DNA of 64,000 nucleotides from Litoreibacter arenae DSM 19593. Lineage in GTDB: Bacteria; Pseudomonadota; Alphaproteobacteria; Rhodobacterales; Rhodobacteraceae. The stretch lies in assembly GCF_000442275.2 (NCBI RefSeq), contig NZ_KE557306.1, forward strand, positions 840,959 through 904,958, written 5' to 3'. The notes under the pieces were generated by a model. It searched no databases and had not been told where the DNA came from. It worked only from the letters and a program-made list of their open reading frames with translations. A program made the translations under genes and the position numbers. Each line of letters begins with the position of its first letter. Within the stretch, counting starts at the first letter, position 1. Shown piece after piece: positions 17,004 through 44,587 of the stretch.

Positions 17004-19454
17004 ATGGACACGGACGATATGAGAGATCAGGCAAGAGTAGTCGTTATCGGGGGCGGGATCGCTGGCTGCTCCGCGCTGTATCATCTGACGCAGGAAGGCT
17101 GGACCGATGTCATGCTGATCGAGCGGGACGAGCTGACATCCGGCACGACATGGCACTCGGCGGCGCAGGTCACCAACTTCGGCATGACGCAGACCATGGT
17201 CGGGCTGAAGACCCATTCCATAAATCTTTACAAAGAGTTGCGCGACGATCCTGAATATCCTGTCGGCTACAATCACGGCGATGGTGGCATCCGTCTGGCC
17301 AACACGCAGGCGCAGATGGACGGCTACCGGCAATTTGCCTCCATGGCCGCCGGCATGGGGGTTGAGTTCGAGGTTATCGACGCCGCTGAATGCGGCCGCC
17401 GCCACCCGCTGATTTCCACCGACAACCTGCTCGGCGCGCTGTGGGACCCGAGCGACGGCCATATTGATCCCGCGCAGCTGTGTCAGGCGCTGGCCCGCCG
17501 CGCCCGTCTGGCTGGCGCAGAGGTCAACCGCCACACGCCCGTCACGGGGCTGACGCAGCATCCCGACAGCACCTGGACGGTCCACACCGAAAAGGGCGAT
17601 GTGACATGCGAGATCGTGGTGAACGCGGGTGGCTACCGCTGCAACGAAATCGGGGCGATGATGGGGGTTCAACACCCCGTCGCGTCGATGGAGCACCAGT
17701 ATTTCCTGACCGAGGACATTCCCGCCATTGCCGAGGCGGGCCATCGCATCCCGCTGTTGCGCTGCCCGATCAGCGGCTACTACTCCCGTCAGGAGAAAGG
17801 CGGCCTGCTGCTGGGCTTCTACGAGCAGGACTGCCGCACCTGGGGGATGGACGGGATCGACCCGAAATTCACCAATGCGCTTTGCCCCGACGATCTGGAC
17901 CGGGTGACAGATGTGCTGGAGGGGGCGTTCGAGCGGATGCCTGTTTTGATGGAAACCGGCATCCGCGAGGTCGTCAACGGCCCGATCACCTACACCATCG
18001 ACGGCGCACCGCTGGTCGGCCCCATCCCCGGCAAGCGTAATGCGTTTTGTATCATAGGGTTGCGCGCCGGTCTGGGCGAAGGCGGCGGACATGGCTGGCT
18101 TCTGGCGCAACAGATCGTGCATGGCGAGGCGCAGTATGACACCTGGGTCATCGACCCGCGCCGCTTCACCGGACATGCCACCGTCGAATTGACGGCGCTG
18201 AAGGCGATCGAGGACTACCAGAACGAATTCCGTTTCCACTTCCCGCACGAGCACCGCACCGCGGGGCGGCCAATGAAGACGACACCGCTAACCTCGACCT
18301 TTGTGGCGGAGGGTGCGGAAATGGACATCGTGAACGGTTGGGAACGGATCGACTACATCAAGCCCTCGCCCGATTTCGAAGAGACGCTGGGCTTCCGCTT
18401 CAATGAGTTGAAGGACGTGGTCGCGGACGAGGTGAAGGCGATTGCCAACGGTGTCGGCATGACGGAGGTGTCGGGGTTCAACCGGTTCGAGTTGACCGGC
18501 AAGGACGTCCACAGTTTCCTTGACCGGATGATGTGCGGGACTGTCACCAAACGTTGGGGCCGCGTCGGGCTGGGCTATCTGCTCAACGCGCACGGAATGT
18601 TGAAGGGAGAGGCGACCATCGCCAACATCCCCGCGTCGGATCGCGGCGGCAATCGCGTCTGGTACGGCTCGGCTGCGGCTTCTGAATTCCACGACATGGA
18701 TTGGCTGAAAACCCATCTGCGCGAGGATGAGGACGTGGCGATCCGGTCGCTGACCAACGCGCAAACGATCCTTGTCTTGGCAGGCCCCAAATCCCGCGAC
18801 GTCCTGTCCGCCGCCGCCCGCGGTGACTGGTCGCGGGACGCCTTCCCGTGGCTGTCGGTGCGCGAGGCCCATATCGGCATCGCCCCCGCGACGGTTCTGG
18901 GCATCAGCTTTTCGGGCGAGTTGGCATACGAGATTCACGTCCCCAACGAGAGCTTGAGCGCGGCATATGCAGCCCTGCGCAAGGCCGGCGAGCCGTTCGG
19001 CCTGCGTCTGTTCGGGTCGCGAGCCGTTGAGTCGATGCGCCTTGAGAAGGGTTTTCTGCACTGGAAAGCCGAAATCCTGACGGAGTTCGACCCGTTCGAG
19101 ACAGGGCTCGACCGCTTCGTGAGGATGGAGAAAGGCGATTTTATTGGCAAAGCCGCATTGAGCGAGCGCGTCGCCCGTGGCCCGCACCGCAAACTGGTGA
19201 CGATCGTCGTCGATACCGAGGAAGCCCCGGCCCATGGCGGGGCGTCCGTGCGTTCGGACGGACGCATCATCGGGACGGTGACGTCAGGGGATTGGGGGCA
19301 TCGTGTAGGGCTCAATCTGGCCTATGCGTTTGTGGAGCCCTCTTTTGCCGCCGTTGACACGGACCTCACGGTCGACGTCATAGGCGATCCGGTTGCGGCG
19401 CGTGTGATCGAGAGTGGCCCTTATGATCCGGCCTATGAGCGGATCAGGGCGTAG
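17004..19454 (+). CDS. FAD-dependent oxidoreductase with GcvT-like domain (dimethylglycine/sarcosine dehydrogenase-like), paralogue 1
   Basis: Predicted to oxidise an N-methylated amino acid and pass the one-carbon unit to tetrahydrofolate. The N-terminus has the FAD-binding VVVIGGGIAGCSALYHL, an acidic ribose-binding end (LIERDEL) and TWHSAAQ, whose His matches the site of covalent FAD attachment in dimethylglycine dehydrogenases. The oxidoreductase part covers about residues 15-370. The rest is the GcvT aminomethyltransferase-like folate domain with its C-terminal barrel (GDFIGKAAL, GTVTSGDWGHRVG). The start at 17004 has GGGAA seven bases upstream. ATGs at 16980 and 17019 are possible, the last aligning best with paralogues 2 and 3. 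Its end overlaps the convergent UdgX gene by 11 bases. The substrate is not known. Confidence 0.85.
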   Translation: MDTDDMRDQARVVVIGGGIAGCSALYHLTQEGWTDVMLIERDELTSGTTWHSAAQVTNFGMTQTMVGLKTHSINLYKELRDDPEYPVGYNHGDGGIRLANTQAQMDGYRQFASMAAGMGVEFEVIDAAECGRRHPLISTDNLLGALWDPSDGHIDPAQLCQALARRARLAGAEVNRHTPVTGLTQHPDSTWTVHTEKGDVTCEIVVNAGGYRCNEIGAMMGVQHPVASMEHQYFLTEDIPAIAEAGHRIPLLRCPISGYYSRQEKGGLLLGFYEQDCRTWGMDGIDPKFTNALCPDDLDRVTDVLEGAFERMPVLMETGIREVVNGPITYTIDGAPLVGPIPGKRNAFCIIGLRAGLGEGGGHGWLLAQQIVHGEAQYDTWVIDPRRFTGHATVELTALKAIEDYQNEFRFHFPHEHRTAGRPMKTTPLTSTFVAEGAEMDIVNGWERIDYIKPSPDFEETLGFRFNELKDVVADEVKAIANGVGMTEVSGFNRFELTGKDVHSFLDRMMCGTVTKRWGRVGLGYLLNAHGMLKGEATIANIPASDRGGNRVWYGSAAASEFHDMDWLKTHLREDEDVAIRSLTNAQTILVLAGPKSRDVLSAAARGDWSRDAFPWLSVREAHIGIAPATVLGISFSGELAYEIHVPNESLSAAYAALRKAGEPFGLRLFGSRAVESMRLEKGFLHWKAEILTEFDPFETGLDRFVRMEKGDFIGKAALSERVARGPHRKLVTIVVDTEEAPAHGGASVRSDGRIIGTVTSGDWGHRVGLNLAYAFVEPSFAAVDTDLTVDVIGDPVAARVIESGPYDPAYERIRA

Positions 19455-20886
19455 TCGCTTCTATCGAGACGATATCGGCTGCCAGCGACAAATCTGCCCT
19501 GAATTGCTGCAAGACCTGCTCGCGCCGGACGGCGTCCGTCAGCCGCAGAATGTAGGACGGGTGGTAGGTGATCAGGACCGGCACCCCGTCCGAGCCATTC
19601 TCGACCGTTCCGCGCCGCGTGCTCAGTGCCTTGCCATCGCCCGTCAGCGCCAGAGCGGCGGTCGCGCCCATGGCCACCACCAGTTTCGGGGACACTTCCC
19701 GAAGCTCCGCGTGCAGCCACCACTTGCAATGATCGATCTCCGATGTGTTGGGTCGCTGGTGTATCCGGCGCTTTCCACGCGGCGTGAATTTGAAGTGTTT
19801 GACGGCGTTGGTCAGGTAGAGTTGTGACCTGTCCAGACCCACCGCCTGCGCGGAGGCGTCGAATAGCTGCCCCGCCGGTCCCACGAAGGGGCGGCCCTGC
19901 AAATCCTCCAGATCGCCCGGCTGCTCCCCCACGATCATCAGGTCAGCGTCCGGCGGCCCCTCCCCCGGTACGGCTTGCGTGGCGCATTCGTGCAGCGGGC
20001 AGCGTGTGCAGGCGCGGATGGCGGCTGGCAAATCCTCTGCCGGATGCGCCCATGCCGACACGTTGCGGCTTTGCATCGCCTGAGCTTGTGCGGCGCGGGC
20101 GGGTGGCAATGTCGGTGCGGCCTCCGCCATCGCCCGCGCGCGGGCCGGTGCAGTCGCGATCAACTCGGCGATAGCAGCCGCTTCGGGCATGTTCTTCCAG
20201 TATTTCTTCGGCATTTCGGACTGCATCGCCTGAACCTTGAGGCGCGCCGGATTAAAGATATTGCGGAAATAGGTGACCCACAAATCCTCATGCGCGTCAC
20301 TGGGCAAGTCCGGCTTCGGCTGGTCCAGATCGAAACTCAGCACCCCGTCGGTGCAATAGGCGGAGACGTCCGGTGTCAGGATACGCCAGTCCATATCCCC
20401 GAAACGCCGCCGGAAGAACTGCGCCGTGGGTTCCACCGTGTGATGCGTCGGCTCGAACCACGCGGCGAAGGAACGGCGCGGCGCCTTCGGGTCGCCGATT
20501 TCGCGGAAGCGGACGAACGCTTTCATCTTGTGCTGGCAGCGGCGCACGTTCTTCTCCAGCGCGCGCAGTTTCGCCAGCCCCGCGTCACCACGATCAGTCA
20601 TCAACCATGGCGCGGATTGCAGCCGCCACAGGAATTCGTATAGCCGCGCGAAGCGCTGCGGGTCGCTGTGCCAGACCACGGTTTCTGCCATGGAGATGAA
20701 GCTGCGCGGCACGCTGACCTGCCTCTTTGACGATGGGGCGGTGTGGGTGTCGAACAGCCCCGCTGTTGCGGTGTCGTCGCCCCAACACACTTCCTCCGGC
20801 GGCACGCCTTCAGCCAGAAGTCCGCGGGCGGCGTCCCGCCACGCGGTTGCCGTGCCGATCCTGGGCAAGACGATTGCCCGCGTCAT
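19444..20886 (-). CDS. DUF4130-UdgX fusion, uracil-DNA glycosylase-superfamily protein
   Basis: Two domains in 480 aa. Residues about 1-260 form a DUF4130-type domain of unknown role that elsewhere can be a separate gene beside the same partners. Residues about 285-475 form a family-4-like uracil-DNA glycosylase domain of the UdgX type: GEQPGDLED near residue 320, the UdgX-specific loop KRRIHQRP with H376, and the YHPSYIL motif near 441. Cysteines 293, 296, 301 and 387 are candidate Fe-S ligands. UdgX is known to bind uracil in DNA and become covalently linked through the loop histidine. Its ATG overlaps the stop of the radical-SAM gene by four bases (ATGA). Confidence 0.92.
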   Translation of the reverse strand: MTRAIVLPRIGTATAWRDAARGLLAEGVPPEEVCWGDDTATAGLFDTHTAPSSKRQVSVPRSFISMAETVVWHSDPQRFARLYEFLWRLQSAPWLMTDRGDAGLAKLRALEKNVRRCQHKMKAFVRFREIGDPKAPRRSFAAWFEPTHHTVEPTAQFFRRRFGDMDWRILTPDVSAYCTDGVLSFDLDQPKPDLPSDAHEDLWVTYFRNIFNPARLKVQAMQSEMPKKYWKNMPEAAAIAELIATAPARARAMAEAAPTLPPARAAQAQAMQSRNVSAWAHPAEDLPAAIRACTRCPLHECATQAVPGEGPPDADLMIVGEQPGDLEDLQGRPFVGPAGQLFDASAQAVGLDRSQLYLTNAVKHFKFTPRGKRRIHQRPNTSEIDHCKWWLHAELREVSPKLVVAMGATAALALTGDGKALSTRRGTVENGSDGVPVLITYHPSYILRLTDAVRREQVLQQFRADLSLAADIVSIEATTP

Positions 20887-22118
20887 AGCAGGCTCAACTG
20901 CTGCGGCGGGGGCGCGAACCGCGCTCGCAAATCTGCGCTATCCGTTAGCCCTGCGGGTGACCAACCACCCGCAGTGATGAAAGCCCGCGCCTTTTTCATG
21001 GAGGCCCCGATCCGCACCAGATCCTCGTAGCGCAAATGCCGGTGACGGCGGGTCGTAAGTATCCGCGACACGGTCTTGACCCCGAACCCCGGCACACGCA
21101 GCAGCAACTCCTTGCTGGCGCGGTTCACGTCCAGCGGGAACAGACCGCGATGCGCCAGCGCCCATGCGAGCTTGGGGTCGATTTGCAAATCGAGGTTGCC
21201 GTCCGGCGTCACGGAGGTGATTTCCTCCAGACCAAAACCGTAGAAGCGCAGCAGCCAGTCCGCCTGATAGAGCCGGTGTTCACGCTGCAAGGGCGGGCTG
21301 ATGAGCGGCAGCTTGTCGGTGCTGTCGGGAATGGGCGAGAACGCGGAATAGTAGACCCGCTTGAGCTTGTAGCTGGAATAAAGCCGCGTCGACTGGCCCA
21401 GAACGGTCGCATCGTTCGAGCCGTCCGCGCCGATAATCATCTGGGTGGATTGTCCGGCTGGCGCGAATTTCGGGGGGCGTTTGCCTGTATGGCTCCGGTC
21501 CTTGGCGACCTCCTTTTGTACCCTCACATTCGCCATCGCCTCGCGGATTTGGGCGGGGCGCTTTTCCGGCGCAAAGCGCTCCACCGAGGCGTCAGTGGGC
21601 AGTTCCACATTGATCGAGAGCCGGTCCGCCAGACGGCCCGCCTCCGCGATCAGTTCGGGGGCGGCGTCGGGGATCGTCTTGAGGTGGATATAGCCGCGAA
21701 AGTTCTCCTCCTCGCGCAGCTTGCGGGCGATCTGCACCATGTCCTGCATCGTCGCATCGGGCGAGCGGATGATGCCGGACGACAAAAACAGCCCTTCGAT
21801 ATAGTTGCGGCGGTAGAAGTCGATGGTCAGCTGCACCACTTCATCCACCGAAAACCGCGCGCGTGGCACGTTCGACGACACCCGATTGACGCAATAGCTG
21901 CAATCATAGATGCAAAAATTGGTCATCAGGATTTTCAGCAAACTGATGCACCTGCCATCGGGGGCGTAGGCGTGGCAGATGCCGCTCCCCTCGTTCGAGC
22001 CGATGCTTTTGCCGCCCCGCGAGTCGCGTTTGGTCGACCCCGAAGAGGCGCAGGAGGCGTCGTATTTCGCCGCTTCGCTGAGGATTGCAAGTTTGCGTTC
22101 AAGGGTGAGTTTGGTCAT
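20883..22118 (-). CDS. Radical SAM protein of the UdgX-linked DNA repair/modification family
   Basis: Predicted Fe-S enzyme using S-adenosylmethionine radical chemistry on a DNA-related substrate; the reaction is unknown. The cluster motif CIYDCSYC gives C69, C73 and C76 (numbering from the ATG at 22118, 411 aa). The N-terminus AAKYDASCASSGS is typical of this subfamily. The C-terminus contains a helix-hairpin-helix (LLLRVPGFGVKTVSRIL), consistent with DNA contact. A GTG at 22139 is in frame, but it would put the LexA-like box inside the gene and adds no conserved residues. The downstream UdgX fusion overlaps by four bases, so the two form an operon. Confidence 0.92.
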   Translation of the reverse strand: MTKLTLERKLAILSEAAKYDASCASSGSTKRDSRGGKSIGSNEGSGICHAYAPDGRCISLLKILMTNFCIYDCSYCVNRVSSNVPRARFSVDEVVQLTIDFYRRNYIEGLFLSSGIIRSPDATMQDMVQIARKLREEENFRGYIHLKTIPDAAPELIAEAGRLADRLSINVELPTDASVERFAPEKRPAQIREAMANVRVQKEVAKDRSHTGKRPPKFAPAGQSTQMIIGADGSNDATVLGQSTRLYSSYKLKRVYYSAFSPIPDSTDKLPLISPPLQREHRLYQADWLLRFYGFGLEEITSVTPDGNLDLQIDPKLAWALAHRGLFPLDVNRASKELLLRVPGFGVKTVSRILTTRRHRHLRYEDLVRIGASMKKARAFITAGGWSPAGLTDSADLRARFAPPPQQLSLL

Positions 22119-22120
22119 AT

Positions 22121-22135
22121 GTTCTACATATGTTC
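22121..22135 (-). promoter_or_regulatory. LexA (SOS) box upstream of the radical SAM-UdgX operon
   Basis: GTTC-TACATAT-GTTC (GAAC-N7-GAAC on the other strand) matches exactly the alphaproteobacterial LexA direct-repeat motif also present before recA in this window. It ends two bases before the ATG at 22118, so the promoter must be close or the message nearly leaderless. Confidence 0.75.
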
Positions 22136-22178
22136 TCACGCCGCCTGACGCAATAGCCCTGTTGCGGGCAGCCCTGCC

Positions 22179-22934
22179 CTAGAAGTTGTCCTTGCGCTTG
22201 CGAAGCTCTGCGAAAACCTCCGCATCGCTGGCATGTTCCAGCACCAGTGCCTTGCGGATCAACGGGTCGGCGCAGCGCAGGAACGGGTTGGTCTCCAGTT
22301 CCGCGCCGATTGTGCTTGGCACCGTCGGGTCGCCTTGGTCGCGCAATTGCTCCACCTCGATGGCGCGGTTGCGCAGCGCGATGTTGTCGGGGTCCACCGA
22401 CAGCGCGAATTTGGCATTGGCCAGCGTGTATTCGTGCGAGCAATAGACCTTGGTGTCCTCCGGCAGCTCTGCCAGCTTTTGCAGGCTGTCCCACATCGTC
22501 TCCGGGCTTTCCTCGAACAAGCGGCCACAGCCCATGACGAACAGGGTATCTCCTGTGAAAACAACGCGTTCCGAGGCGATATGAAAGTTCAACATGTCCG
22601 AGGTATGCCCCGGCGTGTGGATCACATCAACCTGCCGCCCTGCGAATGTGAAGCTGTCGCCGCCCGACAAGGCGTGGTCAACGCCGTCAATCCCCGTAGG
22701 GCCGTAAACCTTTGCGCCTGTCGCGGATTTCACCTGAGCCAGTCCGGTCACATGGTCGTGGTGATGATGGGTCACCCATATCTGCGTCAGCGTCCAGCCC
22801 GTCTCCTTCAGCGCGGCCAGATAGGACGTCCCGTCCCCCGCGTCGACTGCGGCGGTTTCGCCGGTGTCGGTGTCGTGGATCAGCACCCCGTAGTTATCGA
22901 GTGGCGGGTGGGGAAATTGATGTATCTCTAACAT
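22179..22934 (-). CDS. gloB: Hydroxyacylglutathione hydrolase (glyoxalase II)
   Basis: Hydrolyses S-lactoylglutathione to lactate and glutathione, the second step of methylglyoxal detoxification. The metallo-beta-lactamase motif THHHHDH gives ligands H56, H58, D60 and H61. Further metal ligands lie in HTPGHT, the GDTLF region and SHEYT, and the C-terminal substrate domain has the family Lys/Arg-rich end (RKRKDNF). At 251 aa it has the normal length. Confidence 0.94.
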   Translation of the reverse strand: MLEIHQFPHPPLDNYGVLIHDTDTGETAAVDAGDGTSYLAALKETGWTLTQIWVTHHHHDHVTGLAQVKSATGAKVYGPTGIDGVDHALSGGDSFTFAGRQVDVIHTPGHTSDMLNFHIASERVVFTGDTLFVMGCGRLFEESPETMWDSLQKLAELPEDTKVYCSHEYTLANAKFALSVDPDNIALRNRAIEVEQLRDQGDPTVPSTIGAELETNPFLRCADPLIRKALVLEHASDAEVFAELRKRKDNF

Positions 22935-44572: not shown

Positions 44573-44587
44573 GTTCGCCTCTTGTTC
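44573..44587 (-). promoter_or_regulatory. LexA (SOS) box upstream of recA
   Basis: GTTC-GCCTCTT-GTTC, an exact fit to the alphaproteobacterial direct-repeat LexA motif, 51-65 bases before the recA ATG. Confidence 0.85.

Follow-up and report, generated by a model that had tools for sequence, protein, structure and literature searches.

The closest described system is the COG1573-COG4277 gene pair, for which SOS control has been described in Bacteroidetes and is stated as reported for Verrucomicrobia and Alphaproteobacteria in the accessible text of PMC8565304. The same text gives GTTC-N7-GTTC as the alphaproteobacterial LexA motif, and COG1573 is assigned to the uracil-DNA glycosylase (UDG) family in the available part of PMC1839093. 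Here we analysed a radical S-adenosylmethionine (SAM) gene and the DUF4130-UdgX fusion gene that follows it in Litoreibacter arenae DSM 19593, on a stretch of 64,000 nucleotides (nt) of contig NZ_KE557306.1 (positions 840,959 to 904,958), which as a whole is called the window. The radical SAM gene belongs to family TIGR03916, which we take to be equivalent to COG4277. The SOS link of the two genes, predicted in the initial annotation of this DNA, had already been made in the part of PMC8565304 available. The features of the locus are as follows.

20883-22118, minus strand: radical SAM gene, TIGR03916 (rSAM_link_UDG), 411 amino acids, scoring 573.1 bits against a cut-off of 343.5 and matching Pfam Radical_SAM
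19444-20886, minus strand: DUF4130 (TIGR03915) fused to UdgX (TIGR03914), 480 amino acids, with the NCBIfam models over their cut-offs
22121-22135, minus strand: predicted LexA box GAAC-N7-GAAC, plus-strand letters GTTCTACATATGTTC, gene-strand letters GAACATATGTAGAAC
22116-22118, minus strand: start codon (ATG) of the radical SAM gene, whose A would be the +1 of a leaderless transcript as predicted from the -35/-10 geometry
22125-22130, minus strand: predicted -10 hexamer TATGTA, enclosed in the LexA box
22148-22153, minus strand: predicted -35 hexamer TTGCGT, spaced by 17 nt from the predicted -10, its TTG being enriched in anchored promoters

The two genes are predicted to form a LexA-repressed SOS operon, to which we give a probability of roughly 0.87, and, lying behind a LexA box, the operon would very probably be turned on by DNA damage. 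LexA/SOS control is well supported because the exact spacing of the repeat is kept in relatives and a class-specific LexA motif takes its place elsewhere. The perfect repeat is present where the initial annotation had put it and the 4-nt overlap (ATGA) between the fusion gene and the radical SAM gene was confirmed. The box had also been said to touch the start codon, which it nearly does, 2 nt separating it from the ATG at 22118, and the interval given for the operon (20883-22135) spans the box together with the radical SAM gene and leaves the UdgX gene outside.

The conservation of the box was assessed in three samples. Set 1 comprised the best 80 of 592 confirmed stretches from a contig scan with the radical SAM protein, and its loci look alphaproteobacterial. 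Set 2 was drawn from 398 sampled Pseudomonadota genomes, 99 of which had a match; 84 of these scored above the family cut-off and the other 15 were set aside; 55 of the retained genomes belong to the class of the window (9 families) and 29 to other classes, and species may overlap between the two sets. The third sample was the genus of genome G351, where the gene was found in 10 of 13 genomes, one of these 10 being also in set 2. Searched from -200 to +30 relative to the radical SAM start, 77/80 loci of set 1 carried the N7 direct repeat upstream, and each of the three misses (L026, L051 and L078) has a stretch one mismatch off the repeat. The repeat was upstream in 55/55 genomes of the class of the window in set 2 and in all 10 genomes of the G351 genus that carry the gene. 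Ten control spacers within 3-13 gave 0-3 of the 80 loci (3/80 for spacer 13, used in set 1 only). Control spacers upstream in set 2 gave 0-2 of 55 and 0-2 of 29, with spacers 3-6 and 8-12 giving 0-2 in each of set 1 and the class genomes of set 2. Inside the gene (+200 to 430) the N7 repeat was found in 0/55 and the tested spacers gave 0, with control spacer 11 in 8/55. The flanks of the box have drifted among relatives while the exact 7-nt spacing has been kept.

The site takes another form in other classes. CTGT-N8-ACAG was found upstream of the radical SAM gene in 19/29 genomes of other classes and CTG-N10-CAG in 24/29, as against 0/55 and 3/55 in the class of the window, and the alphaproteobacterial repeat in 0/29. 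The LexA boxes of E. coli and P. aeruginosa are listed in the accessible text of PMC9578287, and in other Pseudomonadota the site at this gene is, by its letters, an E. coli-type LexA box. This change of the site between classes, as LexA specificity changes, is the strongest evidence for LexA, and the SOS control put forward in the initial annotation is supported by the counts of 77/80, 55/55 and 19/29.

The box appears to lie within the promoter itself. When 114 distinct GAAC-type sites are aligned by their boxes, the columns of the upstream flank mostly hold 0.0-0.1 bit and a few up to 0.26, the TTG placed 18-16 nt before the box holds 0.2-0.4 bit, and A4, T5 and A6 of the box interior hold 1.2-1.4 bits, the half-sites being set by the search pattern. 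Box positions 5-10 resemble TATAAT, with at least four matches in 77/115 GAAC-type sites, and sit 17 nt from the commonest place of the TTG. In 57 of the 135 alphaproteobacterial loci that were pooled for box distances and gene content, exactly 2 nt lie between the box and the start, so that the predicted +1 falls on the A of the ATG. Across 143 distinct promoters (set 1, set 2 and the G351 genus), -10-like hexamers, defined by at least four matches to TATAAT, peak 6 and 8 nt before the ATG; 87/143 have one ending 5-8 nt before it, against a mean of 18 and a maximum of 29 in shuffles, and against 9 and 14 at the control positions 25-28 and 40-43. Among promoters with the box 10-30 nt upstream, such a hexamer ends 5-9 nt before the ATG in 23/36, against a mean of 4.6 and a maximum of 11 in shuffles, so the short distance is not a mere consequence of the box. 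Shine-Dalgarno-like 4-mers occur in 9/143 promoters, which is about the shuffled rate.

A leaderless mRNA is accordingly considered likely for the operon of the window, and the same geometry predicts it in many relatives, not all. The suggestion of a leaderless or near-leaderless transcript in the initial annotation thus gains support, since the -10-like hexamers keep their place near the ATG also where the box is elsewhere. A precedent for a leaderless SOS transcript is Caulobacter CCNA_01391, which has a leaderless start according to the accessible text of PMC4287350 and is counted, with its LexA box, among the early SOS genes in that of PMC12700426. CCNA_01391 was considered as a possible counterpart of the radical SAM gene; its printed box is identical to none of those at the 10 loci from the G351 genus, which is perhaps Caulobacter-like.

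In undamaged cells, LexA would bind GAAC-N7-GAAC and cover the -10 nearly to the start point, and from this position it would exclude RNA polymerase. On damage, RecA-driven cleavage of LexA would free the promoter, and the transcript would start at the A of the ATG as a leaderless mRNA, which leaves no space for a Shine-Dalgarno site. Translation of the second gene would then follow by coupling through the ATGA overlap. The predicted leaderless start bears on the way in which an SOS gene could be translated when a ribosome-binding site is lacking. Two further features of the window are given below.

22179-22934, minus strand: gloB-like gene, 60 bp upstream of the radical SAM gene on the same strand
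44573-44587, minus strand: LexA-type box of recA, named as an internal control in the initial annotation and found as stated, the open reading frame (ORF) behind it being RecA (TIGR02012)

Several observations weigh against a LexA-repressed, leaderless operon. The window holds 2 perfect GTTC-N7-GTTC motifs, against 1.93 +/- 1.47 in shuffles, and the 3.68 Mb genome holds 79, against 158 for the reversed control pattern. With 79 such motifs in the genome, a perfect motif before a gene in one genome is weak evidence alone, which corrects the initial annotation on this point. These counts, at the chance level in the window and below the control pattern in the genome, would fit a chance match without LexA function, but a chance match would hardly recur at the same spacing and place in 77/80 and 55/55 loci with drifted flanks, nor give way to another LexA motif in most of the 29 genomes that belong to other classes, and we regard it as scarcely credible. 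The conserved sequence might instead be only the core promoter (-10 region) for a sigma factor, with LexA uninvolved, as the -10-like hexamer inside the box in 77/115 sites would allow. However, the half-sites are kept at exact 7-nt spacing also where the box lies away from the -10, and a plain promoter element is not expected to change by class as this one does, to CTGT-N8-ACAG, which makes this explanation very improbable. Box conservation has its own gaps, as no box was found in 5/29 non-alphaproteobacterial genomes, namely G074, G360 and three of genus f46. In the three f46 genomes LexA scores above the cut-off and lexA itself carries a TTAGTAGTAATACTACTAA site, with none at the radical SAM gene, so that at least these three are true exceptions. 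A missing LexA was considered as the cause in all five and dropped, as it fits G074 only, whose single LexA-family match is C-terminal (family positions 83-202 of 203). In G360 there is a LexA-like protein that falls short of the cut-off (99.6 vs 110.95 bits). As a separate observation, a short, conserved inverted repeat (core TCTCATCCAATGAGA) is common to the f46 genomes (L137, L138 and L142) immediately upstream of the radical SAM start, and another regulator may bind there.

Other objections concern the transcription start. LexA control could hold while the transcript starts upstream, from a promoter of its own or by read-through from gloB, the box then acting as a roadblock. Read-through is possible since the gloB-like gene lies on the same strand and no terminator was found in the window between it and the operon; the consensus promoter scan gave nothing at its threshold at this locus, where the -10 (TATGTA) is itself weak. 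Among the relatives, no -10-like hexamer ends 5-9 nt ahead of the ATG in 12 loci whose box is 6-9 nt away, nor in 11 others. In family f8 (L120, L121, L122, L123, L127, L128, L131 and L155), 7/8 genomes have the box about 85-105 nt upstream; the box is identical in these seven loci (GTTCATGATATGTTC) and L155 has a GAAC-type box nearer the start. Such a distance implies a longer leader, and leaderless expression is hence not universal. On the other side, gloB was found beside the operon in 0/80 set 1 loci (tblastn, up to 3 kb per locus), and in two box layouts the -35/-10 geometry puts the +1 at the ATG or close to it, so that an upstream start in the window is considered unlikely. The question of which gene draws the SOS control bears on another possibility, that the operon is regulated because of UdgX, through base excision after misincorporation by SOS polymerases; a similar proposal, on ribonucleotide misincorporation, stands in the accessible text of PMC8565304. 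UdgX is indeed fused to DUF4130 in 120/135 alphaproteobacterial loci (118 of these with the box) and its residues E321 and H376 are conserved. The box is nevertheless retained in 11 of the 12 loci out of 135 that have DUF4130 with no UdgX found, meaning none within the stretch examined, some of which end early. It is likewise retained in the one locus of 135 with DUF4130 and UdgX as separate parts and in both of the two where neither was found. In other classes, 18/29 loci have DUF4130 only (16 with a perfect or near box) and 11/29 the fusion (8 with the box). We therefore find control on account of UdgX doubtful, if somewhat less so than an upstream start.

SOS control thus appears to follow the radical SAM-DUF4130 pair rather than UdgX, because the box is kept where no UdgX was found, and this shows which part to assay first. 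It would also place the radical SAM enzyme firmly in the DNA-damage response. The pair may repair or process damaged bases, with UdgX as an optional module, and we put a repair role of the operon at about even odds. The fuller proposal falls somewhat short of that and is offered tentatively: radical SAM-DUF4130 could be a separate LexA-controlled DNA-lesion repair pathway that has stayed SOS-regulated across Pseudomonadota while LexA specificity changed, with UdgX as an optional product trap and with leaderless expression in many alphaproteobacteria, where start codon, -10 and box lie within about 20 bp.

The genome encodes LexA (G000:C4:978721-979398; 187.1 bits vs a cut-off of 110.95), and lexA has a perfect repeat of its own at C4:978652-978666, 21 nt before its ORF. 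Of the 79 genome sites, 18 have the form GTTC-N6-TGTTC and were examined. Some precede recA, lexA, uvrA, a Y-family polymerase-like gene, a PA0069-family radical SAM gene and the radical SAM gene of the window; the remaining ones lie inside long ORFs or before genes without a repair link seen (e.g. prfC). At L089 (C4:1154700-1154714), GAAC-N7-GAAC lies 12 nt before the PA0069-family radical SAM ORF (NF033668), and so two radical SAM genes stand behind LexA-type boxes in this genome. The site at L098 (C14:18915-18929) lies 26 nt before the Y-family polymerase-like ORF, whose matches are below family cut-offs and which is perhaps an imuB-type gene, and a second TG-type site is found about 1.2 kb away. 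A near-consensus site GAACATAGATAGAAC at L082 (C4:444073-444087) is flanked by prfC (49 nt) and a small SnoaL-like ORF (19 nt) and marks a possible, unexpected SOS target.

In the radical SAM protein, the cluster motif C69-X3-C73-X2-C76 is invariant in an alignment of 36 sequences (the window protein and 35 of the 80 set 1 loci). C23, C48 and C57 are likewise invariant and could bind a second iron-sulphur cluster. Its C-terminus has a weak sequence likeness to the helix-hairpin-helix proteins ComEA and RuvA (E 0.05-0.16). The structure model is middling (mean predicted local distance difference test score, pLDDT, 70), and the fold search with it returned many radical SAM barrels, all weak, with HydE the best (E 3.2e-4), followed by biotin synthase and ThiH; these matches point to no particular reaction. 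The fusion protein of the window contains both GEQPGD (motif A) and KRRIH (R-loop). Aligned with 35 of 69 candidates of suitable length, it shows G320, E321, P323, G324, R374 and H376 invariant in 36/36 and Q322 in 35/36; within the R-loop, position 372 is K in 29/36 and position 373 is R in 31/36, the string KRR-x-H being present in 26/36. By motif, E321 and H376 take the places of E52 and H109 of Mycobacterium smegmatis UdgX as given in the accessible text of PMC10359453. The UdgX part matches the M. smegmatis UdgX structures (PDB 6ail and others) at about 46% identity and a TM-score of about 0.88 to the target, and from its conserved His and Glu it is predicted to capture the abasic site covalently once uracil has been excised. 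The 50 matches listed, of 504, in the fold search with the fusion model were UDG-superfamily structures and one phage polymerase chain, none informing DUF4130, and a sequence search at E 0.01 gave no solved structure for the DUF4130 part.

Compared with known systems, the two genes are plain members of the NCBIfam set TIGR03916/TIGR03915/TIGR03914 (rSAM_link_UDG, SAM_7_link_chp and UDG_fam_dom) with no marked difference. The C-terminal domain resembles M. smegmatis UdgX, with the Glu and His of motif A and the R-loop conserved, but differs in being fused to DUF4130 and in lying behind a radical SAM gene. A term search of PMC10359453 and PMC10776899 gave zero mentions of SOS, radical SAM, DUF4130 or operon. 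Radical SAM enzymes linked to SOS are also found in the PA0069 family and among SplB-like proteins, SplB being named as SOS-regulated in the accessible text of PMC8565304. P. aeruginosa PA0069 was considered as the family of the radical SAM protein of the window and dropped, as PA0069 names NF033668, a family different from TIGR03916. In the literature searched, no paper was found that joins PA0069 with LexA, nor one on the box-to-ATG geometry of the operon, most subscription papers lying outside that literature. The COG1573-COG4277 operon, as far as the accessible text describes it, is alike in the kind of gene pair and in LexA/SOS control; the locus of the window differs in its alphaproteobacterial repeat, which would enclose the -10 and abut the start codon, with a leaderless transcript predicted. 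While SOS control of the gene pair is already known, the box embedded in the promoter with a predicted start at the ATG seems to be what is added here.

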